Of a DNA stretch of 64,000 nucleotides, positions 5,734 to 59,200 are shown piece after piece. This stretch comes from Paramacrobiotus metropolitanus (Eukaryota; Tardigrada; Eutardigrada; Parachela; Macrobiotidae), in NCBI RefSeq assembly GCF_019649055.1, contig NW_026570513.1, forward strand, positions 1 to 64,000, in the 5' to 3' direction. How positions within the stretch are numbered: position 1 is the stretch's first letter; each line of letters starts with the position of its first letter. A model generated the notes under the pieces. It was not told where the DNA came from and searched no databases. It saw only the letters and a program-made list of their open reading frames with translations. The position numbers were made by a program, and so were the translations under genes.

Positions 5734-6900
5734 TTCTCCCAAATGCGACGAAAATCCGCCGTTATTAAATCATCCAAACCAGAATGTCCATACGATACAC
5801 CTGGTCCTTCGGCCGGTTTCCGTTGATGTAAAGCCCACATCGTGTCCGGATGGTGTCATAGCTCCTTGTGTATGATGCGAGATTTCCGGTGGATTAATTG
5901 CAGGATAGGAAGCTTAGGAAGCAGAGTGATACGTTTAACGGCAACTTGTCGTAAGAGCCGACAAAAAATGATAAAACGTCCGATTTAACCAAATATCGGA
6001 GTACTTGTTCGACGATAGCATGTGTATTAACAAATTTAGAAGTGAAACACTGTAGTCCAGAGGTGCATTGATATCGATGTGGACCTTTGAGGACAGGTAG
6101 ACCCCAATGCTATAGATAAGAGATAGACATCTGTGAGACGAACGGATTTTCATTTCGATCAGATCATCATTACGCACAATAATTTTGGGATCACCATCCA
6201 CATTAAACACCAAAGAATCCATAATGTCTTTTTGTTCATGTAAAGTTAAATCGGGAAAAATATTCATGAATCATGACTCATGAGGAAACTGTCGTATTTT
6301 CGTTGACAGTATTTCGATGAAGAAACGCATTATGAATGAGTGTACTTATGCTTTACGGCGCTTTTTACCTCAGGATTACCAACCACTTCCCGTGTCGCTA
6401 CCGACAGACAGGATTGACTTTGTTTTCGTACCGAGAAGCTCGGGTCCGGTTACACACAGCAAAAAACAGCTCCGTATTAGTTTCCCGCTCTGCCCACGAC
6501 GCGTGCTAGAAAAACATTTGTCTCATCACCAGCACTATCGGTAGCGGAAAACAGCTTACCCGCCCCTCCAACATTGCTGGCCTTACTAGCGGCTCCGACA
6601 CCCAAAGTAGTGACGTATACAGAACCGGCAGTGACACGTAAAATAAAAAATGGCATTGAGAAGCGCAATGTTGACACAATTGGGCGTAAGTAGTTATTGG
6701 GATTATCTGGCGAAGTATGTACCCTAGTCCTGGCGTTGCGCTGGATGTGAGGTAGAATGTGCCGCGCCACACAGTACGGTACCGTTACCACTACTCGGTG
6801 CAGTGTGCTCAACGGTATGCCGTTTTAAGTGTGCTCTGTAGTATGACTACGACTGTCAAGCAGCAGTATTGTTCGTAAGTTTATTGCACAAGCTGTTTGC
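5734..6900. other. No gene recognised
   Basis: Short ORFs only, with no motif or repeat supported. Confidence 0.45.
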
Positions 6901-21909: not shown

Positions 21910-22677
21910 ATCCCACATTAGAAATACTTCTTTTCCTTCAAAAAATGCTTATAATCTAACCATTGGCATTACGCTAAAATATTACTGGTTCAAATTGCCC
22001 AGTAAAATCACCTGCCGGCAACGTCTCAGTGTAGGTTAGACTAATTTAGGGGATGGCACCTTCGTCTGGCCAGTAGAGCTCATTTTAAGTAGCGTAGGCC
22101 ACTGCGTGTTCTAGTTTGCTGTCGGGGTCGAGTTCTACGACAACGCATCCGATACCAACACCGGAGGCGTCGGTGTGAATTTCGACCTAGAGTTTGGGAT
22201 TATAGTGTCTAGAGCCTGGAATAAAAATCACCTCTACCGTAACACTCATAGTCGTCCTCTGGATAAACAAGAATGACGGTTTCTTTGGATACACATAATT
22301 GATAATTATGGCATTATGTATTATTTACTACGCGTAACACGCAATGCCTGTTAGTGTCTGCCAGTGTTTGCATTTCTTGCATTTCTTGTTTATTATGACA
22401 GTGTCTGCATTTCTTGTTTTGCTGCGTTCCTTGGGCTAACTGTGCCCGAAGTCCTTCAAAATCGTTGAATTCGAACACCAACGCTTTTTTGGCGATTTCA
22501 GGTAAATTCACCAAAGGTCTATATGTACCATGATGACACAGTAAAAATTAAGTAAAGCGGCCTGCAAAAGATCGCTAATGGTTGTCCGAACAAAGAAAAT
22601 CTGACAATAATTAAAAGTAAGTGAATATACAGTGTATACCTCGTCCAAGGAGTACGTAACTATATTTCTTTAAACAG
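21910..22677. other. No gene recognised
   Basis: May hold the 5' end of the Polinton and the first exon or intron of its polymerase. A polypyrimidine tract plus TAAACAG at about 22660-22677 looks like a splice acceptor. No terminal inverted repeat was found here. Confidence 0.4.
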
Positions 22678-25600
22678 TTTCGAAATAGACTACTGCCAAC
22701 AAAACGTGAGTCCTGCCATCCATCCGTGTAAATACAAAAGAGGCCAGTGTAAACCAGTTCCGGAGAACCTCATGGGCAATTCTGCGTTTGCCGATGGCCG
22801 AAAAGATTACGCCCGACATATTGGGAAAGGGAAACAAGAAATTCTGCGTTCGTTCCGGGAGTTGATTGAAGAAGCCGGCCTTCCAATCCGTGAGTACACC
22901 CTTGCAGACATTTCGGCTTCTGAAAAAGTATTGCCAGGTTACCAGATAGTGGTAGTGAGTACGATGCAAGCCAGCAGCATTGTGTTCAGCGGGAACCTGG
23001 AGGAAAGACATAGCTGCCTTTTATTACATAACCGGCTTTTTGATGTCTTGACTTCCATGCCGGCATTTTTCAGTCGTTCTTACTGGTGTTTTAACTGCAA
23101 TAAAGGATACAACAACCGTGGAAGTCACAGATGTAGCGGTCAGTGTAATTAGTGACTGCGAGTGGATTGTCCCATGGATATTGCCAACATATTGCTTTGC
23201 GCTGATTGCAATCGCAAGTTTCATGGCCAATCTTGCTTCGACCATCACAAGCTGGGCCCGGAAATGAAGTTCTGTTTCGCAGTCGAAGGAGTATCTGCAG
23301 TACCGTCAAAATGTGTACTCAATGTGGTTGTGTGTACTCCTTAATAAAGAGAAAGTCGGGATCGGCACACCATTGTGGAGAAATGTTTTGCACAACGTGC
23401 CAGGAGCATGTCATCGGAGATCACCGCTGTTTTATGAAGCCGCAGAAACTTACTCCTTTCCAGAAGATGCAGTATTCGGATGCCCAATTTTTGTTTTTCG
23501 ACTTTGAAACCTACGTTGCTGAGGATGGGCGGCTGTATCCGAACCTCGCGGTAAGCATAGTTCCTAGTCTGCAATCATAATTTTATACGACACCCGCGGT
23601 AACACTCACGGCATTATGCCGTACACTAGTTGTGTAACAAGAAGTTCTGCGACACACCCACGGTATCACCTACGGTATGTTATACAGGTTGTGCAGAATG
23701 ATGAAGGCGAAGAGTGGATATTCCCGAATGACGGCGAACCGCTTTGCGACATTACGGATCCTCTTTGTCGATTCCTCCTTAGTGAAGACCATCGCGATCA
23801 CATTATAATCGCCCACAATTCCAAGGTAAAATTGTACAGTCTATTTCTTATGGTTCTTTATGTTGCCGTTTTATAGGCCTTTGACGGTTATTTTATACTG
23901 AACTGGCTTCTCAGCAACGGTATTACTCCTAAAGTTATTTTAAACGGGGGTAAGATCATGCAGCTGGATGTTCTCCAACTCAACATTCGATTACGCGACA
24001 GCTTCAATTACAATCCGCAAAGTTTGTCCAAATGGCCGGCTACCTTTGGTATCAAGGACACGTCAGAGTGCACCTTTCCGGACCGATTTAATCGACCGGA
24101 AAACTGGACCAGGTTACCGAATTCCCTACCAAGGAGCAGTACAGGTCCAAGTTTATGAACAAGAAAGACCGTGAAACGTTTGAGCAATGGTACAATGTGG
24201 AGGTCGCCACCAAGAACAACACGTTCGACTTTCGTAAAGAATTTGTGGATTATGGTCGGAACGATGTCACCGTACTCCGCAAGTGCTGTCTCCAATTTCA
24301 AAATTTGTTTTTGGGCATCAGTAACGGCATTTGCCCATTCTCGTCCTCGATGACTATCGCTGGATTGTGTGGTCTGTATTGGAGGTCCAACATTTTGAAG
24401 GCGAACCAGATTGGACTGATTCCACCGCAAGGATACAACCTGAACCGCAACCAGTCGGCAAAAGCGCTAAAGCGGATGCATTGGATGGAACTGGAAGGGA
24501 ACTGCACGATTCAGACGCGAGCAAATGGGAACGAGTTTAAAGTTGGACCTTATTTTGTGGATGGGTACTCTGCAGCAACAGGCAAATTTTTTGAGTTCCA
24601 CGGCTGCTGGTACCACGGATGTCCTGAATGCACAACGCCGGATACCGTCCACCCGTTCTGAAACTTACCAATGACCAAAATTTACGAAGAAACCCTGCAA
24701 CGCGACGCGTACATCCGGGACATGGGACATGAACTGTTTGTCATCTGGGAGCACGAGTTCGACGACCAGGTAAAGCAGGTACCAGATTTCGCGGATTTTG
24801 TTGACGAAATCACCGTCACCCAACCGATAAACCCTCGTGATGCTTTCTTCGGCGGACGAAAAAATGCCACAAAGTTGTATCACAGCGTTAGCAATGGGAG
24901 AAGATCCGGTATTTAGATATCTGCAGCGAGTATCCGTTCGTCAACAAGTACAAGAGATATCCGATCGGACACCCCATCATTATCGTTAAAGACTTTGGGG
25001 AAACCGCGCACTACTTTGGCATCGTGCACTGCAAAATCTTACCGCCTCCCGATCTTTACCTGCCGATTTTGCCATACCGCTCCAACGGTGAGCTGGTATT
25101 TCCTCTGTGCCACACATGCGCTGCGAAACAACTTAAGGCCCCTTGTGCACATTCCGACGAAGAAAGAACGCTTACTGGAACATAGTGTAAGTATGTACCG
25201 TTAAAATTCTGAACACCCACAACAACACCCACGGTAACTTTTACAGGCCCGCCAGAGCTGCACGCTGCAATCGAGCGCGGTTATGTCATCACAAAGATGT
25301 TGGAAGTGTGGCACTTTGAGCAGTCGGAAGAAAGGTTGTTTGCGGACTACATTGATCGGTTCTTCAAGATAAAAACGGAAGCAGGTGGCTGGTCAGCGGA
25401 TGTGACAACCGATGACCAGAAAGATCAATTTCTACGAGATCTTAAAGATCATGAAGGCAATAAGTTGGACTGCGAAAAGATTGAGAACAACCCTGGCATG
25501 AGGGCGCTTGCCAAGTTGTGTTTGAATAGGTAATATCTGCTGTTGCGCATTTTGAGAACTGAGGCTAACTGGATTTGTACTTGCAGCTTCTGGGGTCGCC

Positions 25601-26376
25601 TGGGTATGCAGGACAACAAGCCAAACACCAAGTACCTAACTTGCCTGCGGGAGTTTTACAAAATGCTTTTTTCTGGTGAATTCCACATACACTCGTGTGA
25701 TATGTTCAGCGAGGATATTCTGCAAGTTGCGTACACCAAGGGAAAGCTATTTATTGACTAGAACCCTCATACGAAAGTTGTCTTTGCTGCGTAGGTAGTT
25801 GCTTTTTGTAGGATCAGTGTTTTTGCTGATAATGCCTTTTTGATAGGTTTACGGCATGCTGGGCCCGGCTCCATTTATACGGCTACATGGAATTCCAGGA
25901 TACACTGCTTTACTTCGATACCGGTAATTAACCGTTTCAGAACCTGTACCTAGTATGATGGACTAAGAACCTTATTTTATAGACTCCATAATTTTCGTGG
26001 AGAAGCCGGGTGTATTTGTTTCTCCAACCGGCAAGTTTTTGGGGGACCTAACGGACGAATTGCAGCCCGATCAGTATATCACTCAGTTTGTCGGTCTCGG
26101 TCCCAAGACGTATTCCTACAAGACTAATGATGGGAAAAGTGTCGCCAAAGTCAAGGACACACCAGCGAGAGCATCACGTTCGAATCAATGGTTGATGTTT
26201 TGCATAAGAAAAAAGATTTTCTCCCAGCTGAATACCCTGACCCGATTCAGCGTGTCAAAAAATCTATGGTTTTGCGCCAAGTTGATTTGTCTAAACGTTT
26301 AAGCTTAACATACGATAAAAGGCGAATTGTTGGTAACAGCTACAATACTGAACCGTATGGTTACGTGTTGCAGTGA
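22678..26376 (+). pseudogene. Polinton protein-primed DNA polymerase B, intron-split and broken
   Basis: Replicative polymerase of a Polinton/Maverick. In order: Cys/His-rich zinc ribbons (CFNCNKGYN, LLCADCNRKFHGQSC, CTQCGCVYS...HHCGEMFCTTC; 23080-23450), exonuclease motif FDFETYV (about 23500), DYGRNDVTVL (about 24250), palm motif A DICSEYPFVNKY (about 24920), DEERTLTGT (about 25165), and motif C YFDTDSIIF, which is split by an intron. The C-terminus has RRIVGNSYNTEPYGYV. Introns inferred from GT...AG and frame: 23551-23687, 23826-23876, 25187-25246, 25530-25586, 25791-25846, 25924-25982. Breaks: tandem stops near 23150, frameshifts near 24105, 24905 and 26170, and TAG codons at 25183 and 25759. 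It is therefore non-functional as read. A preceding exon is likely because the first exon opens at an acceptor. Confidence 0.88.
25924..25982 (+). other. Intron splitting the polymerase catalytic motif C
   Basis: The GT...AG intron of 59 bases interrupts the codon of the second Asp in the YxDTDS motif (phase 1). Removing it restores the family motif exactly, which is strong support for genuine splicing. Confidence 0.8.
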
Positions 26377-26419: not shown

Positions 26420-26932
26420 TCAGTTAATTGGCAGACTTAGTACTAAATCAATCATGGCCCATGTCATATCGGCTTCCGTTTTAGCTCCCAAAAAATTACA
26501 GCGACCACTAACAAACAAAATTGCAGTATTCTGGTAACTTTATGCGCAGACCAAGAAACCTGTCGGCACAGTATGGAACATTTAAAAGTTTACTACTTTG
26601 TCTAAATCAAACCGTTGGCCAAAATCATGAGTGCCTACAATGTTTACAATTCGATATTCAGTCGCAAAAAATTCGTAGCCAATATTACGTAGTAGTCGTA
26701 TGAAATACTCCAAAGGAGAACGCGCTTGTTCCAAATTTTTTCCTCCATTGACCGTCGCTTTACCGTTAACGTACAGCTGACAGTGACCCTTCTGCAGCGT
26801 GATCCGACGCAGTAGCAAGCCGGAAAAGGAGCGTGGTGTATATTGCGCCAGGGGCAACCGTTTTTCAATTTCGCTGAGGTTTAGGTGGCAGTTCAACTTT
26901 GCTGTGGCGACAACATTGGTAGTCCAAACCAT
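26420..26932 (-). pseudogene. TBP-like (TATA-binding-protein fold) gene inside the Polinton
   Basis: An ATG at 26932 opens a frame whose first about 115 residues follow the first TBP repeat. Matching blocks are NVVATAKLNCHLNL, YTPRSFSGLLLR, LYVNGKATVNGGKNLEQAR, and YRIVNIVGTHDFGQRFDL. After a stop at 26582-26584 plus a one-base shift, the second repeat appears: CADRFLGLRIKLPE, then, after a shift near 26515, FVSGRCNFLGAKTEADM. It ends 43 bases from the convergent polymerase stop. TBP nucleates transcription complexes at TATA boxes. A copy in a virus-like element could direct late or element-specific promoters, but that is inference. Two breaks make this copy inactive. It could instead be a host TBP paralogue captured by chance, but its tight packing between element genes argues against this. 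Confidence 0.72.
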
Positions 26933-27026
26933 TTTTATACAACCGCGATCCGAAAACAACCGCCTTGCGTTGCTTTATCTGGTCTGATGCAGTCAATTTA
27001 CGAAATGGTGGGCAGTGGCATTCTTC

Positions 27027-27368
27027 CTAATTGATCACTTCTGGCAGAAACTGTTCTAGCAGGCGGCACTTTTCAAGCCTTTTCGCATAAAATGTGAGGT
27101 CAGCTGGTATCCCGACTTTAGTAAAAATATCTTCAAAGGCCAGTGCTGTTTGATTGTGGCAATAATCCCCGTAGGTATGCCAAACCAGGCCGTGGGAGTC
27201 AGGGGCTTGCCTTTCCAAACCACCCGCGGATTTGGCAGCATTGCGTGGTAATGTAAATCTGTACTGACCGACTTCGGCTTTTTCCAAACAGAAAAAAGGC
27301 AACTGCTTGAGGTGTTTTTGTTTGTCAATTACGAACCAATCAGCGTCCGCAACACACCTTACAGCCAT
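27027..27368 (-). CDS. Polinton-associated hypothetical protein (113 aa)
   Basis: Intact ATG-to-TAG ORF upstream of, and on the same strand as, the TBP-like gene (94 bases away), so the two may be co-expressed. It contains WFVIDKQKHLKQLPFFCLEK, HTYGDYCHNQ and a helical C-terminus (AKRLEKCRLLEQFLPEV). No P-loop or catalytic motif was recognised. It is one of the few unbroken frames in the element. Confidence 0.5.
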   Translation of the reverse strand: MAVRCVADADWFVIDKQKHLKQLPFFCLEKAEVGQYRFTLPRNAAKSAGGLERQAPDSHGLVWHTYGDYCHNQTALAFEDIFTKVGIPADLTFYAKRLEKCRLLEQFLPEVIN

Positions 27369-27714
27369 TTTACCATTTTTGGCTGAACCAACTGAACCGT
27401 ACTCTATAGCGCCGCCTTCCGTTTGTACTGAAAGTGTTCAAAAATAAAGTTTGTGCAAGGAAAAGCTTGTCCCAAGTACACGAATACGTACGTCTTTACT
27501 CGTATGCCTCAGGTTTACCTTCAAATTGCAAGGCAAAAGTGCTACTGTTTAGTCCTGCATTATGCTTTTTTAAAATTTTGCATATGAAGGCAGATGTCAG
27601 GCAACTCATAAAAACCTTGATCAGATTTAGATACCAGACATTTTTAGTTTGTAACAGTTTTTTTGTTTGACCTTACTTTATTCGAACGCTGTAGTACTTC
27701 TTACTCCATTTGCC
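27369..27714. promoter_or_regulatory. Divergent intergenic region of the Polinton
   Basis: The minus-strand ORF starts at 27368 and the plus-strand gene at 27715, leaving 346 bases that should hold promoters for both directions. No clear TATA box can be pinned down. Confidence 0.3.
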
Positions 27715-28770
27715 ATGGAATTTATTCCTGATTTCATTTCCTCGCAGCGCGTCGCCTCGCCTAAGCCTTCCACCAGCAATGTTGCCCGCGAAATTCCAGC
27801 CACGCCTCTCAAAACCCGCACCTTTGCCAAGCGACGCGCACCGGAGATGGACGATATCAAGCTGAACCTTGCCAAGAAGTTCAAGGAGCAAGATGACACC
27901 AAGCATCCGCGGCATGCCTTTATGCATGAAGGATCCAACGTGTACAAGATTGGGTTCGAGAAGTACGTCTACGCCCGCCTCCAAGATGGGGTTTCTGCCA
28001 TCGTCATCGGGGAGTGGAAGAAGCAAAGCGACGACACCTACCGCCGCACCTTGGAGAAGTCCATCACCGTAAAGAAGCCTGGTTTCTTGCGCCTGTGTGC
28101 CTTGATGATGAGTGGTAAGGCGGACCTGGACAAGAATTCTCAGAACTGTGGCACGGACGGTAAGCTGACGCCTCTGTATGCGTTGGAGAGTGGACTGTAT
28201 TTTGGCTGGGGAGTTACAACCGTGTCAACACGGCCATCGTACGACGTTACACCTTCGGCCAGAACGCAGACCTGATTCCCACCAAAGCCGTCGTGACCTT
28301 TGGACTGAAGACGTACGACGGCCTCAAAGAACTGGTTATAGATATGACGCTGCTGAAAGAACTCCTGGGAGTGGATGAAGCCAACAATGTTCCAAAGACC
28401 TTGAAATCCGCTCTGGCTTACGACAAGCTCAAAGAGGGGAGTATTCCGTTTATTTGTGTAATTTTATGCAGTTCTCTGTTTCTGGAAGATTTGTGCGGTA
28501 ATCAGTTTGTTTTGATTATATGAAGTGGCTAAAGAGTTCAATGAACTCATCCACCAAATGCGCGGTCGCAATGGAAAAGTCGGCTGTGGGAGTGCCAGCG
28601 ATGACGAGTGGGCAGCGGCTGAAAAGGCTATTGTGGAGTCGCGCTATGTGGAGGCTGTTCTGTTGGAAGCTGACCAAGTGGATCTTGGGCAAGTTGTTGG
28701 ACTCGACGTTAAGGGGTATTTGGAACTTAATGCTCTGGAGTTTCGTGCTATGTTCGCTAAGCTTATTTAA
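27715..28770 (+). pseudogene. Unassigned Polinton gene, broken
   Basis: ATG at 27715. The N-terminus is disordered and Pro/Ser/Lys-rich with a nuclear-targeting-like KTRTFAKRRAPEM. A globular part follows (KHPRHAFMHEGSNVYKIGFEKY, IVIGEWKKQSDDTYRR). A frameshift near 28205 continues into SYNRVNTAIVRRYTFGQNAD and KAVVTFGLKTYDGLKELVIDM. After about 28437 an intron-like gap with a non-canonical donor (GGAGTATT) precedes a last block, AKEFNELIHQMRGRNGKVG to FRAMFAKLI. It is convergent with the protease gene. I do not recognise the family. Its place matches the accessory/structural genes that vary among Polintons. Confidence 0.55.
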
Positions 28771-28858: not shown

Positions 28859-29376
28859 TCATTTTAATTTCGATATTCGTTTACACATCTGACGGATGAA
28901 TGCACCGTCGATTATCTTTGTATTGATGTCAAAATAAGAATTCACATACTGGCAAGCCATCTTGTCCTTGCTTGCTCGATTATCAGTAAACAAGTGCACA
29001 ATATCAGTATAAGTTTCGCCACTGACAGGACGAAGTAGAAAAAACAAGCAGTATTGGCAACAGACTGTAGTGCATTCTGATTGCAGTTGTTCGGCTTGCT
29101 CTATGATCCGATTAGATGAACATAAATCAGCGAAATTCTTAGTATGTGAACCCAGTTTCCTACCAAACGAATCAAACACTTCCAAAACTCCATCTTCTTC
29201 TTGGTAAAAAGCAATCCAGTGCGATCCATCTTGGTCCGCTGGGTCAATGTTGATCACTGCCGCTCCAGGATACGGCGGTAGCGCGGGGGGCACTTTATCG
29301 CTGGCAACACTCCGCGTAGTACAGCATTTGTAGCCGGGTTTGATTGGAGAGCGCTGAGAATTTGGTCGGTATTCAT
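28859..29376 (-). pseudogene. Polinton adenain-like cysteine protease (maturation protease)
   Basis: Resembles the C5-type protease that cleaves capsid precursors in adenoviruses and Polintons. Seen in order: an N-terminal stretch starting MNTDQILSALQSN, the SDKVPP segment, AVINIDPADQDGSHWIAFYQ with the catalytic His, VFDSFGRKL with the acidic residue, and CTTVCCQYCLFFL with the catalytic Cys where the family usually has CG.YC. A one-base frameshift near 29303 separates the N-terminal 25 residues from the rest. The start overlaps the major capsid stop by four bases, which suggests a compact late-gene cluster on the minus strand. Confidence 0.85.
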
Positions 29377-30710
29377 GTCGAAAAGTCCGAAATCAGTTGC
29401 CGATGCTGATTGATCTCAATGATGCTGTCCCAGACCAACATAGCCACCATCATTACGGTCTTTTCCAGCGGTTTGTCAAAATTAACCGAAACGCTTAAAT
29501 TGCCCTGCTTCACCAAAGTCAGCGGTCCCTTTCCAGTATGTTCAGGCGTCAAATCAAACCTGAAAAGCGTGTATCCGCCGTTGTAAGCGGCTCGATTAAT
29601 ATGGAGGCTGTTGTGCGCATGAGTGCGATATCCCAATGTGTCCAGCAACCCATCATAACATTCCAATGACAGCGAACGTCCAAAATCGGCAGTATAGGGT
29701 TTTGTTGGATAGCTTTGACCGTCCACCTCCACGCTGATCTGATTGATATTAAAATGTTGAAAGTTGAAAGGATTACTCTTGAAACTGCCGTGGAAATCAT
29801 CGCTTTCTAAAAACCCAATGAAAATAACTTTGGGAATCTGTCCGATTTGCAACTTGCTTACTACAGTGCTTTGAGTTTTCTGGGGAATATCAGACACACG
29901 CATTACTACGCGTTCAATGTGGTATTTCACGGTTTTCTTCAGCATTTATGACGCTACAGCTGTCATGAAATCCGGTGCTGGAATGTATCGACGGACAGAT
30001 AGTCGTGCGTTCCGGATAAACGGTTAGAATTGCTTTGTTGCGTCAGCATCCCACACTCAAAAACAGAATTCAGGTCGGCTCATCACCAATCGGATGTTGA
30101 TCGGCACGCCGGTACAGAGTTGTTTACTTTGATCGAACAGATCAGCGAACAATTTGCCTGATAGTTGTATGTAGTTGCTTCCGCTGAACAAGGCTTTGCG
30201 GCTTTTTTCACCGTTGTTTCCTTATTCGTCGTTCATTTTAGTTGGGGTGTCGGCGTAATATCCTGCTGATGTCAAATGTGATCTCTGGGCGTCCACGCCA
30301 AAGGATAGCAATGATTCCAGGTATGCTCGATAAGGATAAAACGTTCCCGCGTCCGAGATGAGACGATTCGCCACGGTGACATGGCACGAAGAGAATAATG
30401 AATGCAGAAAGTTGTTAACCGGAGCCACTCCGTCGGTGTTGGTAATTAGATCCCAATCGCCTGCTCCCTTCTTAACCTTTATACCGACCTCGAGTTCCAG
30501 CATCATATCACCCAGACTTAGCAGACCAGCGGTATTGGGAGGAATGTAGAAGTTTATGCCATCAGCCGAACCGTTGTCTGTCAGGATTGTTGTTGGATTA
30601 AGTTTCTCATGCTCGGTACCCCATCGATCAGTCAAGGTCGCCGGTAAAGCAAACAGCTGGTTGTCCAACTGCATCGCTGGCTCGGAATTTTTCATCATAA
30701 GCAGAGCCAT
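29373..30710 (-). pseudogene. Polinton major capsid protein (double jelly-roll), broken
   Basis: The N-terminal part from ATG 30710 has GINFYIPPNTAGLLSLGD, PVNNFLHSLFSSCHVTVANR and YPYRAYLESLLSFGVDAQ. An in-frame TAA follows NDE at 30222-30224, after which the same frame continues (ALFSGSNYIQLSGKLFADLF) before another stop near 30060 and a frameshift. The C-terminal part (from 29945) has QIPKVIFIGFLESDDFHGS, NPFNFQHFNIN, and YTLFRFDLTP. These are the conserved blocks of the Polinton hexon-like capsid. The gene is clearly inactivated. Confidence 0.87.
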
Positions 30711-30712
30711 GT

Positions 30713-31111
30713 TCAAAAGTAGTCAGGAATGTTGGCTGGTGGAATACGTTTAATGCGATGTCGACAACGAACTGGGCGACGTTTCTTACGAATACCGCTT
30801 CCTTCTTGAGGTGCTAAACGCTTAGTAATAGCTTCTTTGGCTTGAGCCGTGACGTTTTTAATGGCCCCGCTAGCCGCTTCTTGCAGGTGCGGCGCTGCCG
30901 CTTCGGAAGCCGCTTTAGCATGGGGTGCTGCTCGACGAATAATTGGTTTGGCAAATGCGGAAATCTTTGCAAACAAACTCTTAAGAATCTGCGGGAACCC
31001 GGAACCATTCTGCCTCGTGCCGCGGTAACGAATGCGCGCACTTCCTCCGGTTTGGCTGACAAACACTTCTTCGTAGCGTCGCGGGTCAGGAACGTACTGA
31101 ACGAAAAGCAT
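30713..31111 (-). CDS. Basic, Ala-rich Polinton virion-type protein (132 aa)
   Basis: Intact from ATG 31111 to TAA. It contains GSGFPQILKSLFAKISAFA, an amphipathic stretch, then Ala-rich helices (AKAASEAAAPHLQEAA, AIKNVTAQAKEAITKRL) and a basic patch (RKKRRPVRCRHRIKR). It sits between minor and major capsid genes. By position and composition it could be a membrane-active or DNA-condensing minor virion protein like those of adenoviruses. This is inference, since no single diagnostic motif exists. Confidence 0.6.
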   Translation of the reverse strand: MLFVQYVPDPRRYEEVFVSQTGGSARIRYRGTRQNGSGFPQILKSLFAKISAFAKPIIRRAAPHAKAASEAAAPHLQEAASGAIKNVTAQAKEAITKRLAPQEGSGIRKKRRPVRCRHRIKRIPPANIPDYF

Positions 31112-31113
31112 TT

Positions 31114-32053
31114 TCAGTGCAGGCGTTGTAGTCGAAAGTGTAGTTTCATCAGCGACTTTCCCGTTTGGAACTTGACTTCATCTCCGAGGTCGTTGGCAAT
31201 AATCAGATTTATGGTTTCAAAATGTTGTCGAAGAACAGGAACATAATGAGGAATGTCAAAACGTGCTTCCACGGCCTGATTGACTTCGCCTCTAATAGGT
31301 ACGGCACGCAAAAACTTTGCTGCTGTATCGCCGATCAAACTGTAGTCGGCCACGTCGCTATACACAAAGAGACTCTGGTTGCCTAGCAATGTGTTTACAG
31401 GCCGGTCGGAAATGTACGTAGTTACTTTTGGTGATGGCGCCTTGTCCCAGAATGCATAGTATTTTGCTCTTGCCTGACCTTGAGCGGTATTAGTTGTTTT
31501 GTACAGGAACATTAGGTTCAAACTGGCTATGATCGAAACCCAGAATCTTTTGCAACGTTAAAGATTCGGGTGGAAATACGGATACTTGGTCATTCTTAAT
31601 ACTCAGCTTGACTTTATGGTTGGTTGGCGTAAAAAACTCTTCTTCAAACATTTTATTGTTTGGCAGGGCACTCTTATCGTCAATCACTTTTCCATCAAAC
31701 AGAGAGGTCTCAATGACAGGAGCCAGAGAGTTTATGGTTTGAAGAAGCAGCTCAGCGTTCTTGTAATTACCCGGAGGTACGACAATGCTTTTCTGGGCAC
31801 TGACATCTCTTGGAGTTTGAATAAACTCTCCGTCTATTTTAAAATAAAATTATCGCACAACATCCACTTGGATTTTTTGCTTAACTGGTAGAGTGTAAAA
31901 AGAGTTCAGGTACTGTAACTCCAACAGTGCCATCTCCCATTTGCCTTTAATGTAATAGGATGCTTTAGCTTGGTAGTCCAATTGGACGGGGTGTTGGCGG
32001 GATCGGTAGCCACATCGCCGGGCAGTTAGGTAGAACGGCGCACCTTCATACAT
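31114..32053 (-). pseudogene. Polinton minor capsid (penton-like) protein, broken
   Basis: ATG at 32053 begins the gene. An N-terminal GKWEMALLELQYLNSF block resembles the assembly segment of the family. An in-frame TAA at 31850-31852 is followed in the same frame by FYFKIDGEFIQTPRDV and SIVVPPGNYKNAELLLQTIN. A frameshift near 31500 leads to the C-terminal blocks SLFVYSDVADYSLIGDTAA, FDIPHYVPVLRQHFETI and KSLMKLHFRLQRLH, which match the single-jelly-roll vertex protein. It precedes the Ala-rich gene by two bases. Disabled by one stop and one shift. Confidence 0.83.
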
Positions 32054-32094
32054 TTTTCATCGATCCACTGATCGTGTTCGGGTCCGTAACCTAA

Positions 32095-32860
32095 CTAACG
32101 GACTAACACCTTCTTTCCGCGACGCTTTACAATAAAGTCCACAGTGTGCTCTTTGTCAGGCACGTTGCGCGCGAGAGATAATTCTGGTTCGTAAGATTTT
32201 CCGTTAATGGTGTTGTCCTGATAGTCTTTCAAAACGCAGACCGGTACAGAATGAGGAATGACTTGTTGAGCGAAGAACATCTCCTCCTTAGATCGGTAGG
32301 TGTATCCTTTTTCCACTTTTCCTTTTTGAATCGAAATTCGCACGGCATCGTTCACCTTGAACCGAGGTCTTTTCACTGTTAGCGCTGGATGTACCTTGTT
32401 ATAGATAAGCCAAGAATTCTCTTGCTTGACGTTGATGGGTCGCATTCCATGAGCGCTGTGTGGTGAGTGATTATATGAGTGCACCATATCCGATAACTTG
32501 TCAATGTAGCGGGTGCTGACGCGATGGCAAAACAATCGGAACAATCGCTATTTAATTGTACGTATTACCCGTTTCGCCATGGCACACTTCACGTCTTCGT
32601 TCTGAGAAGTAAAGAACTGTATGTCGTGGTCCTTCAGATATGCGCGAACAGTTGCGTTCAGCGTTTCCGTGCCATCTTTTCTGGTTACATTTTAAACTAG
32701 TGTCCATTAGCGCAGACGTGTGAAGTGTACGGGCTATTTCTAAGCAGAACAAAAACAATGTATTCACCTCAGTAATCCTGCCAGTACTTGTTTACGTCTC
32801 AAAATTTCTCCGCATAAGCCGGTCGCACTGCTTGCAAGTAGCGGCAGTCAGGGTTATATG
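32095..32860 (-). pseudogene. Polinton retroviral-type integrase, broken
   Basis: Read on the minus strand, the core shows KDGTETLNATVRAYL (around the second catalytic Asp) and FFTSQNEDVKCAMAKRVIRT, where the family normally has an ERFNRT-like string. The catalytic Glu appears to be Lys here. A TAG near 32550 precedes TRYIDKLSDMVHSYNHSPH and the C-terminal chromo/SH3-like region (FKVNDAVRISIQKGKVEKGY). The upstream part (32.70-32.86 kb) is too decayed to read. Integrase normally lies near one end of a Polinton, so the element's right end should be close, but no terminal repeat was found. Confidence 0.83.
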
Positions 32861-50342: not shown

Positions 50343-53070
50343 ATGTCGGGCGGTTCGATTCCTAGAAATCGCCCACCACCGCGTAAAATCCCAGATAATA
50401 AAGTGATCATTGGGGCGTATGATGGGTCGAGAGCCCAGACAAGGTTCAAATTCAACGCAAAAGAAATTCCGTTGAATTTGATGTACTTTACATGTTGAAC
50501 CACCAGAAGCACAAGATGCATTCTGTTGGAAGTCATGGATTGATTACCAGGAAATCAGGCGGTACTTAAATTCCAAAACGAGATTACCAGCATATTTTAA
50601 ACCTTGGATTGAGTACGAGGGATGTATCCCTGAAGCTTACCTAGACATCACTGATGAGCAGTTTAAAGCGGCTTTGCAGGATGCAAACAGGTGGCTGCCA
50701 GAATACACGGAAGATTTGAATAGACGAAGAGAGGCGGCCCAAGCTGCACTTACAGCGTCAAAAGCAACCGGAAAAACTCCAAAAAAACAGGCAGCAAATG
50801 AGCGCGTCACGCGCGGCGCCAAGGAGAGAATTCCAGCCCAGGCATCCGGTGCGATACTGGATGAACCCATATCGGAAACTCCAAGCGTGGCCGAGAGCCA
50901 GACAGAACCCCAGTCGTCCCAGTCGGACAATAACTTGATAGCATTGTCGGCTGCGGACAAAGCGGATATCTCCGAGGGATCTGAAACAAGAGCAAGTAAA
51001 AGTATTCGCGGTGGAACAATGACATTCCACCCGGCACAACTAAAATTACATAGTTTTGTGTCGGAAAAAGATTTTGAACAACCAGATGAGGACTTTCTTA
51101 CTCAAGCTAGGGAAGTCGATGAGCAGTTAGCTGCGGCAGAAACTGACCAGGACGTGGGCTTGATAGTTCGGCAAACTATGCCCGTATTGATCCAAAGTCT
51201 CCGCACGCTCATCGCATCTACAAAATCAAAAGTTGATGAAATGGGTAATACAGTGTCGTTAGACGCTCGTGTTGATGAGGAAAGAAATCTAAAACTTAAA
51301 TATCAATCAGATTTCAACGAAATGCGTATTAAATTTGAAAATGAACAAATAGAAAATGACAGATTGGCCAACGAAATACGCATTGCGAATGATAATCTAC
51401 ACGGTTTAAGAAAAGCCAACAGAAATGCGGAAGTCGCATTTAATGCACTGAAAGATGAGCGCGACACCTTAAAAGATACGAACCGAAGTTTGGAAAAACA
51501 GTTGGAAGACGCTCAGAGAGATTTTTCAAGTGCGAAAGCTACGAGTGATGGTCTCAGTGCTCAACCAACACCGGACACAGCGAAACTAATTGCTGATTTA
51601 GACAAAAAATTCAATAAAGCACTGAGGGATTTGAGTGCCGAAAAAGATGCGCACAAAGTCACAAATAAAAAACTGACTGATACGCAGAATTTGTCCACAA
51701 AACTCACCAAAGATTTGGAAGATGAAAAGAAGCGGGCTAAAGACGCGGAAGAGTCTCTTCAAAGGGATCTCACGCATGTGAGAGTCCAGCTCAATAACAA
51801 GTCTTCAGTCGGCAGGATGCATATTCCTAAGGAAAAGGATGATTTATCTCAAAAGGAAATTGAAAGGTTACAAGGTTTGTTGAATACAGAGCGAGAAACT
51901 GTTCAGAAAGCTCAAAAAGAATTAAATGGTTTGAAAAACGATAAAAGATGCAGTAACTGCGAGAACGCGATCCAAGCGAAGAATAAAGCACAAGCCGATG
52001 CCTACGAAAAATCTGAAGCATGCAACCGGTTATATGCGGAAAATGCGCAATGCCGAAAAGAATGGCATGAAAAACATGATCAGCTTACCAAGATGGAAGT
52101 GGATTTTAGGGAAGCATGCAACGAACTTCTCCAGCTTCGAAATCCAGATGTTGCTCTTGGTGGCGCTGAGAGATATTTCCAAAGGGAAGCACCGGTAGCA
52201 ACAGGACACGTATTACGTCCTCCCGCATTTACACCATTCAATCCCCAAAATTTCCCTTCATACGTTGATCAGCCCTTAGCTACTGGCAGTAATCCAGCTG
52301 GTATTTTGCGGAGGCCCAGACAGGAATCGCGAGTCGAATTCTCGGAGGCTCACTCTATGCCCCGCTCGTCCTCAGAGAGCCAAATTCCCAAGGAAACGGC
52401 ACTTGCCAAACAGAAGAAAAATAGTTCGACAGATTTACGCCAGCAAATTTTAAAAAGAACAGCTGATGACTCTGGCCGCCCGATGCGTGGATCTGAACAC
52501 AGGGACAGTTCAGATACAGAAAACGAATTTGGGGATGATGTTCTACTGGATGATGAGCACCGTCGCCCTAGCAGCACAACCAGTAATGAGTCCACTTCCA
52601 GAAACCCTCAGTTGGAAGAATGGCTAATTAAACAAACCCAAATTTCTGACAGAACCGCGCTTACACAAGAAAGCGTGGTGGAATTAATAGCAAAACTGGC
52701 GGAAAATGACAGTGATAAAACGGTAGGAGGCATGAAGCTCCTTACCTTCGATGATTCCCATCCAGAAAAATTCCAGAAGTGGCTCATGAATGTGGAGCAG
52801 TGTCGCACCACAAATAATTGGAATGATGAGGTTACCTGTCGCAGAGTAACCGGCGCATTTACTGGAGCGTCCTTCCAATGGTTCGAAAAATTCTGGAGAG
52901 ACAATAAAGGCAAATCATGGTCTGATTTCTTCAAGCCGGCTATTGTAGAGCACTTTAACGGCTCTCTTTCTAAAGCCGATATTCGAAGAAAAATGAATAA
53001 CCACAAATTGGAGTTTATGAACCAGTTCGTGCTTACCTGGATAGCTTCCTCCCATGGTTCGAAGAACTAA
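50343..53070 (+). CDS. Gag, very long, coiled-coil rich (frameshifted twice)
   Basis: ATG 50343 opens 51 codons (SGGSIPRNRPPPRKIP...) ending at a TGA near 50496. A one-base shift there joins the 2.5-kb frame that stays open to 53070. Residues coded by about 51100-52100 form a long charged coiled coil (NEQIENDRLANEIRIANDNL, SLEKQLEDAQRDF, QKEIERLQGLLNTERETVQK). A Ser-rich segment follows, then a capsid-like retrotransposon Gag domain (TFDDSHPEKFQKWLMNVEQC, FQWFEKFWRDNKGKSWSDF). Its last third continues in another frame after a break near 53036. Gag forms the particle that encloses the RNA. The coiled coil is much longer than in typical Ty3/gypsy Gag. The two shifts may be decay or sequencing indels. 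Confidence 0.85.
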
Positions 53071-55271
53071 AAGTATCCGATGAAGAACAGGTTGAGGCAC
53101 TTCTGGAGGGCGTGCAGGAGCACAGACCGGCATGGTTTCGTGAAATCTATAACACAGCGCCAAAAAATTATACGGAATTTGAAAAGAAGTTGCAGGAGTG
53201 TGAGAAGTTATGGAAGCGAATGAATAAAGATAAAAAGGCACCTGAATCAACACAGAAAAGGGCTCCTTCAGAACCGAGAAGCGCCGGAAATAATAATAAT
53301 AATAATAACTCGAATTATGAGTATCGAGGCGGCCGTGGCGGCTCGTCTCAAAGAGCAAATTATTATTCAAACCGGGGAGGCCGAGGAAATTACGGCAATA
53401 ATCGAGGCGGATACTCCCGCTCGTACACGGAAACGGTGATTCCACAGCCGCAGAATTCGGTGGCTCCAGTCCAACCTGTCCTGAATGTATCCCAGCCGCA
53501 GTTTGTCCCAGTCCCGGTGTTTCAACAGCCCCAATACGTTGAGCAACAATACCCGGTGCAATTTGCACAGACCTTTCCGCAGCCTATTCCCATGCAGGCT
53601 CCGATACCCGTTCCGATGCAAATGATGAATCTGATGATGCCGGTTATGCAGCCGCAGTTCCAGCAACCAGTACAGAACTTCGATCCGCAGTACCAACAGG
53701 ATGGCCCTGCGAATAATAATAATTACAATGGTGGTAATAATCGGGGAAATTACCGAAATAATAATAATAATAATTATCGCGGACGAGGTGGCTTTAACAA
53801 CAATAATAACCGCCAGCAAAATCAGAACGAAAATTATCGTCCGAATCAACAGGCTGGAAATCAACCCCCGTTTGACGAAAGAAACATTTTAAAGGATAAA
53901 TGGCGAACAAATCGCGGAGTCGAGATTTGTTTCCGCTGCCATGGTTTACATCCGGCTGCTGGTTGTACCAATCAGTTCGTACTTCCTCGTCAGTATGAAC
54001 CGTCTGCAGAATTGTTGGCTCGGTATAATAACCCGCAACAGCAAATAAACATGATGGAATTGGACTTACCTGCTGGTTTGTCTTCTCCGATGCCCCAGTG
54101 CAACAAAATGGAAGTCCAGGACTTTTCGCAATATCCTCTAGCGGACCACGTTTGTCTGTTGCCGACGCTTGATGCTCAGGCTTGGTATTCTGTAATTGAT
54201 ATAAATTATCAGAAAGTGAAGACTATGCTGGATACCGGTTATAGCATTTCCGTTATGTCGTTAAAAATGGCTAAAGATTTAAAATTAAATATTCACCGCT
54301 GCCCCGATCACATTAAGGGCAGGGTTGTACATACAGCCTACCAGGGGAGACAGTTAATCGAGCCGCTTTCGGTAGTGGTCACCATCCATGAATTCGGGAT
54401 GGCTTTTGAGCACGCAGTCCTTGTGAGTTCCACTTTTGATAGGGACCACGTTGTTTTAGGTTTAGACTTTTTAGCTACAAAGCCTTTTATTTTAGACATG
54501 AACACAATGACTTGGCGTCTCTCGCGTAGACAGCCTAATGCTCCGGCATTTTTCCGTCGTGAAACTCACCTGACGTCGGATGTCATCCGCTCACACGATT
54601 TTGACCCGTTAATTCCTGCGGGAGTTAAGCCGTCCCCGTCGATTCCCGCGCTGATGTTAACAGAGCGCATCGGTGTCGCTAAAGAAGCAAAATTTGTGCC
54701 TTATGAGTCTGCACATTTAATTTTAGCGAAAGCAGATCCAGAAATTTGTATTTTACACTTACAAAAGGCCAAGCAGGAGTGGCCGCGTCCAGTCCCGTCG
54801 CCACCAGCGATAAAAGTAGCCAATGCTCCAGTAAAAGCGGAAGTTAAAGAAATTGTGCCCGTGCAGGCGGTGCCGACCAAAAAGGGATCAGATCAACGTG
54901 ACGAAGAGTTTGTCCGAAGTGTTGTCCAGGAGATGATTCGTCAATATCTCCCGAGAGCAGCTTCCGTCGCGGATGAACCTGTTCGTCCTGCAATTAAAAA
55001 AGAAATTCAGACAGAGAAACACCCAGAACCAAATCAAGTTCGTGGGAGAGGCGGCGAAATAATTGTAAATAATATGCAGTTAAGTTCGCGGGGGAGAGAA
55101 CAGGCGCTTTTTCTTCCGCCAATTCAAAAGGAAAAAGTTTCACAGCCGTCTCCGGCAAGCTGTCCGATTACCTCGTCTTCGGCATTGGTCAGTCCTGTGC
55201 CTAATCCTGGTTCCAGTCAAGTTCGTGGGGGGACGATTCCTTACAACTCCCGATCCAAATCTCTTCTGTAG
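53037..55271 (+). CDS. Gag C-terminus, nucleocapsid and aspartic protease
   Basis: Continues the capsid domain (VSDEEQVEALLEGVQEHRPA, YTEFEKKLQECEKLW). It then has Arg/Gly and poly-Asn tracts coded by AAT repeats (about 53285-53410, 53710-53860) around a Pro/Gln-rich block, and a zinc-knuckle variant CFRCHGLHPAAGC (CX2CX3HX4C, one residue shorter than canonical). A retropepsin follows: active site VKTMLDTGYSISVMS (about 54215) and the flap/second motif VVLGLDFL (about 54465). A Lys/Pro-rich tail carries QVRGRGGEI and QVRGGTIP. The protease would cleave the Gag-Pol precursor. The frame ends at a TAG six bases before the next ORF in another frame. Confidence 0.85.
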   Translation: MDSFLPWFEELKVSDEEQVEALLEGVQEHRPAWFREIYNTAPKNYTEFEKKLQECEKLWKRMNKDKKAPESTQKRAPSEPRSAGNNNNNNNSNYEYRGGRGGSSQRANYYSNRGGRGNYGNNRGGYSRSYTETVIPQPQNSVAPVQPVLNVSQPQFVPVPVFQQPQYVEQQYPVQFAQTFPQPIPMQAPIPVPMQMMNLMMPVMQPQFQQPVQNFDPQYQQDGPANNNNYNGGNNRGNYRNNNNNNYRGRGGFNNNNNRQQNQNENYRPNQQAGNQPPFDERNILKDKWRTNRGVEICFRCHGLHPAAGCTNQFVLPRQYEPSAELLARYNNPQQQINMMELDLPAGLSSPMPQCNKMEVQDFSQYPLADHVCLLPTLDAQAWYSVIDINYQKVKTMLDTGYSISVMSLKMAKDLKLNIHRCPDHIKGRVVHTAYQGRQLIEPLSVVVTIHEFGMAFEHAVLVSSTFDRDHVVLGLDFLATKPFILDMNTMTWRLSRRQPNAPAFFRRETHLTSDVIRSHDFDPLIPAGVKPSPSIPALMLTERIGVAKEAKFVPYESAHLILAKADPEICILHLQKAKQEWPRPVPSPPAIKVANAPVKAEVKEIVPVQAVPTKKGSDQRDEEFVRSVVQEMIRQYLPRAASVADEPVRPAIKKEIQTEKHPEPNQVRGRGGEIIVNNMQLSSRGREQALFLPPIQKEKVSQPSPASCPITSSSALVSPVPNPGSSQVRGGTIPYNSRSKSLL

Positions 55272-55276
55272 ATGCA

Positions 55277-56126
55277 GTGTTGAAGCAACATCCTGCGGCA
55301 AAGTATCTCTACATGGGCGTTTTAGAGAAATCAGCCAAGGTTGTCGAATGTCTTAGCATGGATAATAAACTGCTAAATGTCATACCTGTTGAACGCGATC
55401 GCAGAGACGTTGATGAAGTCCACGATTATCCGTCTTATATGGCGCGGAACCCAGAATTGAAAAAGTGGATGACGCCAATGGATAGGCCACAGGATAAACA
55501 GTTGTTCCCTTCGGAGCAACGTTTCAGAGATCCCCAGTTTTGGTGCGAAACTCAGCAGCAGTGTGTTGATAGCCGGATGTGGTACGTCGTTGCATGCTAA
55601 TACGAATTTTACCAAGTACGAAATCAATCGGTTCATAATCTGCGAAGGAATTCTATGCAGAGTGCCCGATCATTCTGGTGCGTGTCCGAGAATTTATATG
55701 CCGCACCAATGGCGACAAAAGTTGATAGCCTGCTTTCATGAAATTTTAATTCATAAGCAAGCTTACGGTCGGCATGAGAAATTATACCCGTATTTAGTCA
55801 AGCTTTTTTATTGGCCTGATTGTATTATTGAAATTGAATGGTATGAAAAGAATTGTGACGTATGTCGAAATTCAGTAAATGATCGTCGGCATTTTGAAAC
55901 TCTGAAGCGTACCGAACAATTACATGCTCAGAAAGCTACAGGAAAACGTAATGTCACCTTTTCCGTCGATAATCTAGCCCCGGCAGGAGAATTCGAAAAT
56001 GGTAGCTTCGTCCCTGCTGATGGAATGAAACCCATTAATATCGGCCCGTGTCCGGTCTCCTACGAAGATAGGAGACCGGACACGGGCGGAGAAGCAAAGA
56101 GAAATAAACTGCCAATTGATTGGTAA
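55277..56126 (+). CDS. Extra zinc-binding (integrase H2C2-like) module upstream of RT
   Basis: Two overlapping frames (55277-55600, 55563-56126) read as one module with a shift near 55590. The first has HDYPSYMARNPELKKWMTP and QFWCETQQQC. The second has FIICEGILCRVPD, YMPHQWRQKLIACFHEILIH, LYPYLVKLFYWPDCI and KNCDVCRNS. The spacing (H...H, a FYWP block, then CX2C) is that of the integrase N-terminal zinc-binding domain, normally found only after RNase H. It resembles the ORF after the integrase (60070-60972) more than the integrase's own copy. It lacks a catalytic core. It may be a domesticated RNA/DNA-binding domain of the element. Confidence 0.65.
56044..56087. repeat. Perfect 19-bp stem hairpin with 6-base loop
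   Basis: GCCCGTGTCCGGTCTCCTA (56044-56062), loop CGAAGA, exact complement at 56069-56087. It lies inside the end of the extra zinc-binding ORF, about 40 bases before its stop and upstream of pol. Very stable when transcribed. Confidence 0.95.
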
Positions 56127-56231
56127 CTCACCGCAGGAGCCTAAGTTGATCAGTGATCAAATGTCGGATCTGCTTCCTCCGGCGGTCAGGGCATCTTACG
56201 ACTCCCCTGTGGATGTCGACATCAACGAACA

Positions 56232-59200
56232 GTGGGAATCTGGAATGAAATACAGAAACAGAAGGCATTGAGCGAATTTGCAGCTGTTAATCAAGCACAA
56301 CCTACTGTGGGAAACTATGAATCGTCACCGGAAGGTTCGGGAAGGAATTCTCCTAGACGTAAAAAGTCCAGCCATAGCCGTAGAATAAGACGAGAATACG
56401 CAGAGCGCGAGGCTGCAAGCCAAATGTCGGCCGAAACTGTGCAGCCAGCACCGGTAGTGCAACAGTCAGTCGTCAAAAATTTACCGAAACGATCTCAGGA
56501 TGTACGTGAATCCACCGATATCCCGGCATGCGTGTATTCCAAGGATGTCATCGAGTTGGCGTACAGGGACGCCCATCTGAAACAAGCCCAAGCGCAGACA
56601 GAAAATAATTCGTTAGAACACGATATTTACCGTTTTGAACCAGAACCTGGTCCAATCGACTGTTTTAAAATGGAGCTTTTTCCAGCTTCACCGGTCATAA
56701 TTCAGCCCCATTCGCAGGGAATTATTCGTGCGACGACGGCAATGTCTGACGAACAGTTCATGGAATTTCAAGATGAATACTTGTACACTCAGCCGTTTCT
56801 CTACGAAGGAAAAATTCCAGAATCAAATAAAAATGCAGTATTACTGGACGGCGTTCTAACGCTTAATGAGTACGGTAATTGCAGGGTTTGCGTAGTTAAC
56901 GTTTCTGACAAACCGCTGGTTTTAAACGAAGAAACTAACCTCGGTGAAGTGGCTCTTGTGGACGCAGTGTACCAGATGGACTCTCCAGAGTTTCAGGAGA
57001 GTTGTCAAGAAGCGATTAGTGGTATTCCCAGTGATGACAAGGGCATTCCAGTGCCGGAGAAAATTACTGAATGTGTGGCTATGCAGTTGCCGCCATCCAC
57101 CGTTGGTGCTGTTGATCCTGAAACGGAGGAAACTTTCGCAAAAATTAAAGTTGGAGACATTTGTCCAAGTAAGGATGAATTGAAAGCCATATTTTATCAG
57201 GCAAAGTCAGTCTTACCGACTAAAGCGCGTCCAGTGGGATGCTGTACCATTTATGAGCACTCCGTGGATACAGGCACCAGTTTGCCGGTTAGAACTCCCC
57301 CGTATCGTACGTCTTTTGAAGATAGGAAGTGGCTTCAGGCTAAAACACAGGAAATGATTAAAGACGGCATTATCGAGCCAACAAATTCGGCGTGGGGAAG
57401 TCCTATTTGCATCGTAAAAAAGAAGGATGAACCCCGGCGTTTAACCGTGGATTTCCGTAAGCTTAACGAAAGATTAATGGGCAGCAGTTACCCGCTTCCC
57501 AGAGTTGACGACATAATAAATGCCCTCGATAAAGCTACGGTCTTTAGCAAGATTGAATTAAAAAGTGGCTTTTGGCAAATAAAAATTAAACCAAAAGATC
57601 GCTGTAAAACGACCATGGTTGGGGAAGAATTCACATTTCAATATAAAGTCTTACCTTTTGGGATGAAGGACGCGCCTTCTGCTTTCCAGCGCGCCATGGA
57701 CTTGACGCTTGCGAACATGAAGTGGAGGAACGTGTTGGTGTTTATTGATGACATTATTGTATTCAGTAAAAACCTGGCTGATCACATGCGGGATTTACAG
57801 GAACTTTTCCTAAGGCTCCAGGAATGCGGCTTCACCATTAATCCTGAAAAAACAGAATTGTTTGTTAATTCGATAACGTTCTTGGGTCATACGGTCGATC
57901 AATTTGGTCTAAGTACGGATCCAGAGAAAATCCAGGCGGTTAAAGAGTTCAGTCCTATAAAAGATAAGAAAGATATTCCCAGATTTTTGGGCATGGTTGG
58001 ATATTATCGCCAATTCATTAAGAACTTCCAAGAAATCGCGGAGCCGCTTCAAAAATTAATTCCTAAAAAAGTTACCTTTGAATGGGGAACGGATCAGTGT
58101 AGGGCTGTGGAACAATTGAAGGAGGCCTTGGTGACGGCGCCGGTCTTGGCCCGTTATGACCCAGAGGCTTTGTCGCGTGTTATCGTCGATGCCAGTACTA
58201 TTGCTGTGGGTGCAGTCCTTCTGCAATGTCGGCGGGACAAACCAACTGATGTGCCGACGAACTGGAGACCTATCGCGTATTTAAGCCGCACGTTAACCGA
58301 GACTCAGAAAAGGCTCTACTTCCCTACTGAGCTTGAGGCCTATGCTGTTATTTGCGCTCTCAAGAAATGGAACCGCTACCTTTCTGAATACCAGTTTGAA
58401 GTCCAAACCGATCACCAGGCGCTGGTTTTCCTTAATAATATGCGTGATGCCGCTGGCCGCCTCGGGCGCTGGGCCTTATATATCCAGCAATTTAACACTA
58501 AACCTGTTCACATACCTGGCAAAGAGAACGTTATTGCTGACGCCCTGAGTAGAAATCCAGGAGAGCAACCGGAACCCGACTCCGACGACTCGGATATTGA
58601 GTTTGATTATCGGCAAACTTACCCTTTTGCCGGTGGTGCAGCGATGATTGAGTGTTGCTTTGCGGTTTTGGAGAGAGATTATGGGGATATCCGGTTCGAA
58701 ATGATGTCGGCTGAGGTGAAGGCAGTCTCTCAAGAAGATATGCAAGCCTTTGACGCTGATAAAGTTCAAAAGTTGATTACGGATGATAAAGCCTCTCATT
58801 GGGCTGAGGAGCAGTCTCGTGATGCCAGGATCGTCCGTTGGCGATTGCTCCTAGAAAACAAAAAGGAAAAGATGTCAGATCATGAGAAATTACACCTGAA
58901 CAAATTTGTAGTAAAGCAGGGCGTTGTTTATTATAAATTCGAATTAAACCGCAAAATTTATTACTGTATGTACGTGCCAGTGCACTGGCGGTTACAATTC
59001 CTTCAGGATAATCATGACTCACCATTAGCGGCACACTTGGGAGTTCTGGCCACCTATAAAAGGATGTACAAGTATTTTTATTGGCCCCGTATGTTCGAGT
59101 CTGTTAAAAGTTATTGTGCCTCTTGCCCGGCGTGCCTTGCACAAAATCCTCTTGCCACGGCTCCGGCCGGCGCTCTGCAGTCAAACCCGACCGTTCCTCC

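Follow-up and report, generated by a model that had tools for sequence, protein, structure and literature searches.

A two-repeat TATA-binding protein gene beside Polinton genes in the genome of the tardigrade Paramacrobiotus metropolitanus

We propose that the standing genes of one lineage of animal Polintons include one for a two-repeat TATA-binding protein (TBP), and that this protein serves as a viral promoter-recognition factor that recruits the host RNA polymerase II (Pol II), a reading that we regard as rather probable. The TBP gene is present, has two repeats, is intact in many copies, is under selection, is located beside Polinton genes in the stretches that were read, and is old. TBP, which marks where transcription starts, is commonly regarded as a general factor belonging to the cell. 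Intact relatives of the gene described here are similarly placed in many sister elements and thus small viruses seem to bring a promoter-recognition factor of their own.

The copy from which the analysis started lies in a window of 64,000 nucleotides (the whole stretch of contig NW_026570513.1 that was analyzed), at 26420..26932 on the minus strand, with its start at 26932 and its stop at 26420-26422. The minus-strand frame 26582-26974, which translates into 130 amino acids and contains NVVATAKLNCHLNL, YTPRSFSGLLLR, and VNIVGTHDFGQRFDL, represents TBP repeat 1 and the start of repeat 2. It matches the Pfam TBP family (PF00352) with an E value of 1.9e-18 and 66.5 bits, where the cut-off is 22.9, and it also matches 35 different sequences of the PDB, with 2.7e-15 as the best E value. 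The gene is interrupted, and FVSGRCNFLGAK is in a different frame from repeat 1; by itself the latter frame gives 11.8 bits with PF00352 (E 0.23), under the cut-off of 22.9. As FVSGRCNFLGAK is found at the site expected of repeat 2, and as its counterpart and repeat 1 share one frame in L042, the closest intact relative in the rows that were read, the window copy is a decayed two-repeat TBP. A preliminary description of this DNA had reported minus-strand frames with both TBP repeats and had called for a Pfam profile check of their translations; its coordinates and spacing are correct, the profile match is above the cut-off, and the remnant of repeat 2 is out of frame. The description had also placed the end of the gene 43 bases from a convergent polymerase gene, and indeed 43 nt separate the TBP stop from position 26376, where polB has the end of its last frame, and the C-terminal pieces of polB are convergent with TBP.

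The surrounding element, which extends from 32.7 to 22.6 kb (its stop-to-stop frames were searched separately), is a decayed Polinton with integrase, capsid-side, protease, PC4-like, TBP, and polB genes. Along the direction of TBP the order is integrase, penton-like, core-like, MCP-like, protease, an opposed PC4-like gene, an ORF that we call DADWF, TBP, an opposed polB, and a further ORF. Several of the genes are split into two or more frames, and hence the window copy is dead. The integrase (rve plus chromodomain family; 32095..32691, minus strand, two frames) is recognized by homology to relatives, one of which (L022:6809-7927) matches rve at 2.2e-11, above the cut-off, and Chromo at 4e-4, below it, while another matches rve at 3.1e-13 with Chromo at 1.3e-9. 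Three minus-strand frames at 31114..32056 are a putative penton or minor capsid gene, an identity that we assume from gene order and that no Pfam or PDB match backs, and the conserved ORF at 30713..31177 (minus strand) encodes a small basic protein that we take, from its make-up, to be core-like. The putative major capsid protein (29373..30722, minus strand, three frames) is homologous to a 446-residue ORF of L028, presumably a capsid protein by its likeness to F54H12.2-like Polinton proteins; this ORF is conserved and in place, and has no match in Pfam or in the PDB, the search of the PDB with an MCP profile included. The adenovirus-type protease (28859..29392, minus strand) gives 17.3 bits with PF00770, under the cut-off of 21.3, and its relative in L028 gives 23.0 bits, above that cut-off. 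A search of PHROGs gave no match for four capsid-side and protease ORFs.

Genes on the plus strand flank the TBP unit on both sides. The broken PC4-like gene (27655..28523), which is divergent from DADWF and TBP, was recognized by phmmer through PC4-family relatives that match PF02229 at 1.9e-8 and 1.5e-8; the frame in the window lacks a Pfam match of its own and takes its name from those relatives. The polB gene (DNA_pol_B_2; 23206..25758) is broken into several frames, with fragments of 24.4 and 19.6 bits that are under the cut-off of 25.8, and its C-terminal part occupies two further frames at 25967..26376. The same family is matched at 2.6e-51 in an intact relative and at 6.6e-33 and 5.3e-27 in elements of the second TBP group described below (Fam2). 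A separate frame for the C-terminal part of polB is seen in L012, L013, L019, L022, L024, and L028 as well as in the window (25758-25967); the split is near an apparent polymerase motif C and may represent an intron or a conserved split. Beyond polB is a conserved ORF that we term ZFhead (22625..23341, plus strand), one relative of which has a sub-threshold zinc-finger match. No packaging ATPase of the A32/FtsK type was found in the window element; a P-loop motif is present in nine of 20 related loci, and a Pox_A32 match in L018 has 19.5 bits, below the cut-off of 22.8. There are no inverted repeats of 30 nt or more within positions 14000-44000. Elsewhere in the window there are plus-strand retrotransposon frames (53001-60101), which include a gag-type aspartyl protease frame (53001-55268) and a 1314-residue open frame with reverse transcriptase, RNase H, and integrase (56157-60098).

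A single PF00352 profile search of the genome (169.8 Mb, 533 contigs) yielded at least 150 matches, which were grouped into at least 122 loci on 85 contigs, the host's own TBP gene on contig C4 included; the number of loci is a lower bound because the copy in the window is absent from the matches listed. Thirty-nine distinct loci, corresponding to 40 rows (L048 repeats L016), were read from the best-scoring matches and are therefore biased to intact copies. Each of the 39 has a frame that resembles TBP and shows the viral profile, and within this intact-biased set both repeats are in one frame in 36 of the 40 rows. Intact relatives match PF00352 with 107 and 116 bits, each in two stretches, and the NCBIfam TBP models match an intact copy with up to 103 bits, which is below their cut-offs.

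The neighborhoods of 24 loci that were picked for carrying TBP (20 of 10 kb and four of 9.9 kb) were read, among which are near-copies (L009-L011; L016, L018, and L021; L014 and L015). At least one other Polinton gene is beside TBP in all 24, in several gene orders, the weakest case being L023 with ATPase frames only; the loci having been selected by TBP, these counts apply to TBP-bearing loci. The order of the window recurs, with gaps in some, in nine further loci (L012, L013, L017, L019, L020, L022, L024, L025, and L028), and L051 and L050 have a similar arrangement. The capsid and PC4 side of L009-L011 is like that of the window with a BIR gene behind TBP; the ATPase, integrase, and capsid side is divergent from TBP in L014-L016, L018, L021, and L049; and polB, BIR, TBP, ATPase, and integrase all have one direction in L026 and L027 (and in part in L052). 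Two kinds of Polinton thus have a gene for a BIR (inhibitor of apoptosis) protein close to TBP, at L009:4510-5184 and L026:3119-3733, with matches at 2.7e-21 (in L003, which is locus L009) and 4.5e-7, respectively. The constancy of TBP while its neighbors vary speaks for a standing gene. These neighborhoods support the earlier proposals that this Polinton lineage carries its own TBP-like factor, probably one of initiation, and that the gene is no random insertion.

Some of these elements show signs of mobility. L009, L010, and L011 are 98-99% identical and carry identical TBP genes, and their identity breaks off at the same base, beyond which each has a different flank; the one terminus seen there is AGTAGT, and an AGT end motif has been described for vertebrate Mavericks, which average 16.9 kb (PMC8097293). 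A different element end, AGAAGAAACAG, is seen in L016, L018, and L021, where the flanks also differ.

Relatives of the viral TBP in sequence databases number 36 proteins by a single-protein search and 175 by a profile search, of which the best 120 are listed. At least 51 (P0003-P0038 and P0040-P0054) are close-family proteins that are 40-70% identical to the query of their own search. The only rows of the viral clade that carry an organism name are two proteins of P. metropolitanus, P0012 and P0055, and P0012 is the same gene as that of L019, being identical to the L019 TBP frame over the first 113 of 131 residues. Searches of the IMG/VR viral contigs with the TBP profile, MCP, polB, and an MCP profile gave no relatives, and neither did the phage records. 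In a quick tree of 153 of 177 rows (near-copies and short rows were dropped, and the columns of the residues that define the groups were retained), the viral TBPs and the environmental proteins form one clade of 91 rows (SH-aLRT 97), which splits into two groups, Fam1 (SH-aLRT 98) and Fam2 (SH-aLRT 99), and the host TBP groups with human, yeast, and insect rows. The copies from this genome are scattered among the environmental ones and hence the genome holds several old lineages. One very divergent TBP-like frame, L047 (G000:C66:348600-350200), falls outside both viral groups, on a long branch.

The origin of these genes by chance capture or retrocopying of the host TBP, with later amplification along with the element, has in its favor the shared family and nothing beyond, and its probability is close to nil. 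Over 30 main-lineage rows (near-copies and the L048/L016 duplicate included, L047 left out), the mean identity of the viral TBPs is 29% to the host TBP and 31% to that of yeast, with no affinity to the host, whereas the host protein has 86% identity to human TBP and the host gene is with human and yeast in the tree. Moreover, identity to the first query sequence is 40-59% for the 39 database proteins that, among the matches listed, precede the first drop in score. A closer match to the host's own TBP, which the preliminary description had named as the sign of a retrocopy, is therefore not what is seen, and a host retrocopy is rejected. The viral TBP clade is, by its sequences, old and apart from the host TBP.

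The predicted DNA-reading face of the viral protein has changed in a fixed way. Residues were compared at the 17 positions of the KSHV ORF24/TBP table (Table 1 of PMC12529657) over 82 Fam1 rows, which include near-copies and P0012 and leave out L047. T124 is replaced by N in 82 of 82 rows, L114 by Q in 79 of 82, F116 by Y in 79 of 82, V122 by T in 81 of 82, V213 by N in 75 of 77, and T215 by L in 72 of 77. Nearly all Fam1 rows still have N69, N159, F99, F190, and F207, and so both groove asparagines and three of the four kinking phenylalanines are retained, the fourth (F116) being tyrosine. Fam2 shares Q114 (22/22) and L215 (25/25) with Fam1 and keeps F116 in 18 of 22 rows; L114, F116, T124, V213, and T215 are unchanged in all 11 cellular rows. 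Fixed changes are found at six of the 17 contact positions vs. four of 144 when all positions are considered (p 9e-5), and the excess is weak relative to equally conserved positions (6/11 vs. 4/17, p 0.10). On what we take to be the TFIIB-facing side, E188 is mostly kept and E186 is often T, and the basic residues of what is presumably the TFIIA side vary.

It might be thought that the TBP-like frames have outlived an old function and are now passively carried, a notion that could draw on the decay of some copies, that of the window included, and on near-copy pairs in which dN is close to dS; indeed, among pairs with dS below 0.1 the dN/dS ratios are mixed, some near 1 and some far lower. For 15 more divergent TBP pairs (dS 0.1-1), which share rows and so are non-independent, the median dN/dS is 0.23 with a range of 0.06-0.55, and divergent copies are therefore under purifying selection. 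This, the intact two-repeat frames of most rows read, and the near-invariant residues over the 82 Fam1 rows argue against passive carriage, which we consider very improbable.

Directly upstream of TBP in the window is DADWF (27027..27437, minus strand), a conserved ORF that overlaps the start of TBP out of frame in the relatives that were aligned. DADWF and TBP probably share one transcript, judging by this arrangement. Splicing of DADWF into TBP was considered for the fused frames of L025 and L019 and rejected, as the aligned DNA reveals an out-of-frame overlap of two genes. DADWF has two database homologues; the searches made gave no family match and no named relative, and the PDB only two matches at chance level. 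One homologue, P0137, and the environmental TBP P0020 are each on a JGI contig of 1439 bases, and from the equal length the two contigs are probably the same one. Upstream of the DADWF-TBP unit there are GGTAATC/GATTACC-like arrays in L012 (~5500), L019 (~572-641 and ~5974-6157), and L020 (~4000), and in L019 they are found before the polB side as well.

Promoter patterns were examined in 15 of the 20 loci, near-copies being left out, and 73 of the 124 gene starts were counted as heads of units. The pattern TAT[AT][AT]A[AT][AG] precedes 12 of the 73 heads on the coding strand and two of them on the reverse; shuffled sequences give 3.0 +- 1.6, and six such boxes are 42-49 nt before DADWF or PC4. 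In a small test on four held-out loci it was found at 2/32 starts on the coding strand vs. 1/32 on the reverse, with three of 43 occurrences upstream where 1.6 were expected. A second motif, TATTTAAG, was found post hoc, with six of 11 occurrences upstream in the 15 loci vs. 0.4 expected, and it recalls the herpesvirus TATTWAA motif (PMC12529657). As a box for the viral TBP it was rejected, since in the four held-out loci none of its four occurrences is upstream, nor are any of the 13 of TATTTAA (0.47 expected). Hence no viral box is claimed, and TATA boxes stand before some units.

The presence of ordinary-looking TATA boxes (TATAAAAAG and TATAAATAG) at some element heads, which the host TBP could use, speaks for the view that the viral TBP interferes with the host by competing for its TFIIB, TFIIA, or TATA boxes and thereby damps host transcription. 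The BIR gene beside TBP in some elements likewise suggests host-directed functions, since BIR proteins are a family known to block cell death. If the viral TBP were a decoy for host TATA boxes, however, it would be expected to retain the DNA-contact residues of the host protein, several of which are replaced here, and we consider such interference unlikely.

Under the preferred reading, that of a promoter-recognition factor, the viral TBP would bend promoter DNA, as suggested by the retained groove asparagines and kinking phenylalanines, and it would read a sequence other than that of the host TBP because the replacements among its base-facing residues are fixed. It may recruit the host Pol II, perhaps via TFIIB, and the PC4-like protein of the element may assist. 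If the viral TBP does recruit host Pol II, element promoters could therefore fire without the host TFIID, as with the herpesvirus TBP mimic at late genes. TBP is also a DNA-bending fold, and it might instead have an architectural role in which it bends the DNA of element ends or origins in the course of replication, integration, or packaging. The convergence of TBP with polB in nine of 20 loci, those that show the C-terminal part of polB, fits such a role, while the PC4-like gene found in 11 of the 20 belongs to a family of transcription cofactors and points the other way; since PC4 also binds single-stranded DNA its presence is compatible with an architectural role too, which overall seems improbable to us. 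To return to promoter recognition, a more specific version is that TBP with its rebuilt DNA-reading face, the PC4-like cofactor, and DADWF form a private initiation module that redirects the host Pol II to element promoters, as a functional equivalent, independently arisen in a far smaller element, of the late pre-initiation complex of herpesviruses. We put this forward tentatively, as possible but doubtful.

The elements have DNA_pol_B_2, an rve integrase with chromodomain, an adenovirus-type protease, a putative P-loop ATPase, and, at the one end seen, AGTAGT in common with Polinton/Maverick (adintovirus) elements, and differ from them by the TBP and PC4-like genes in the element body. The main texts of PMC8097293, PMC11071296, PMC11071308, and PMC10120064, so far as available, have zero occurrences of TATA or TBP. 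A partly parallel case is KSHV ORF24, the TBP mimic of beta- and gamma-herpesviruses, which is likewise a viral TBP fold with most kinking phenylalanines and the groove asparagines kept (PMC12529657). ORF24 is changed at L114, V122, T124, L205, V213, and T215, several of which are contact positions replaced in Fam1 too, with T124 becoming N in both. The parallel is partial because ORF24, in the same table, keeps F116 and changes V161 and L189, while the Polinton family changes F116 and keeps the other two. ORF24 also has further Pol II-binding domains and works with five other viral factors (PMC12529657), unlike the Fam1 Polinton protein of ~170 residues, which has little beyond the TBP core.

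Other DNA viruses with a TBP gene include nimaviruses, with the TATA-binding protein wsv303 of WSSV (PMC10871703), some nimaviruses being endogenous in crustaceans, and mirusviruses (PMC10132985); these are much larger viruses of other lineages. The poxvirus factors VETF-l and VITF-3 are likewise TBP-like promoter factors, but they act with a viral RNA polymerase and their sequences are minimally conserved (PMC12917281), whereas a plain sequence search is enough to find the Polinton protein. In a paper on Cymbomonas, the TBP genes belong to other elements that are connected with mirusviruses. Full-text searches, covering mainly titles and the starts of abstracts, showed no report of a TBP gene in Polintons among the papers listed; most subscription papers are outside their reach and prior notice is possible. 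Viral TBPs as such are known, and TBP as a Polinton gene is what appears to be new.

The virus-borne TBPs met in print belong to far larger viruses. A TBP standing in Polintons would show how a small virus, though dependent on host Pol II, can still determine which promoters fire. A compact viral TBP that is recognizable by sequence and has defined, fixed changes at DNA-contact residues makes the rewiring of TBP specificity directly testable, and the TBP gene may serve as a marker of a Polinton lineage.
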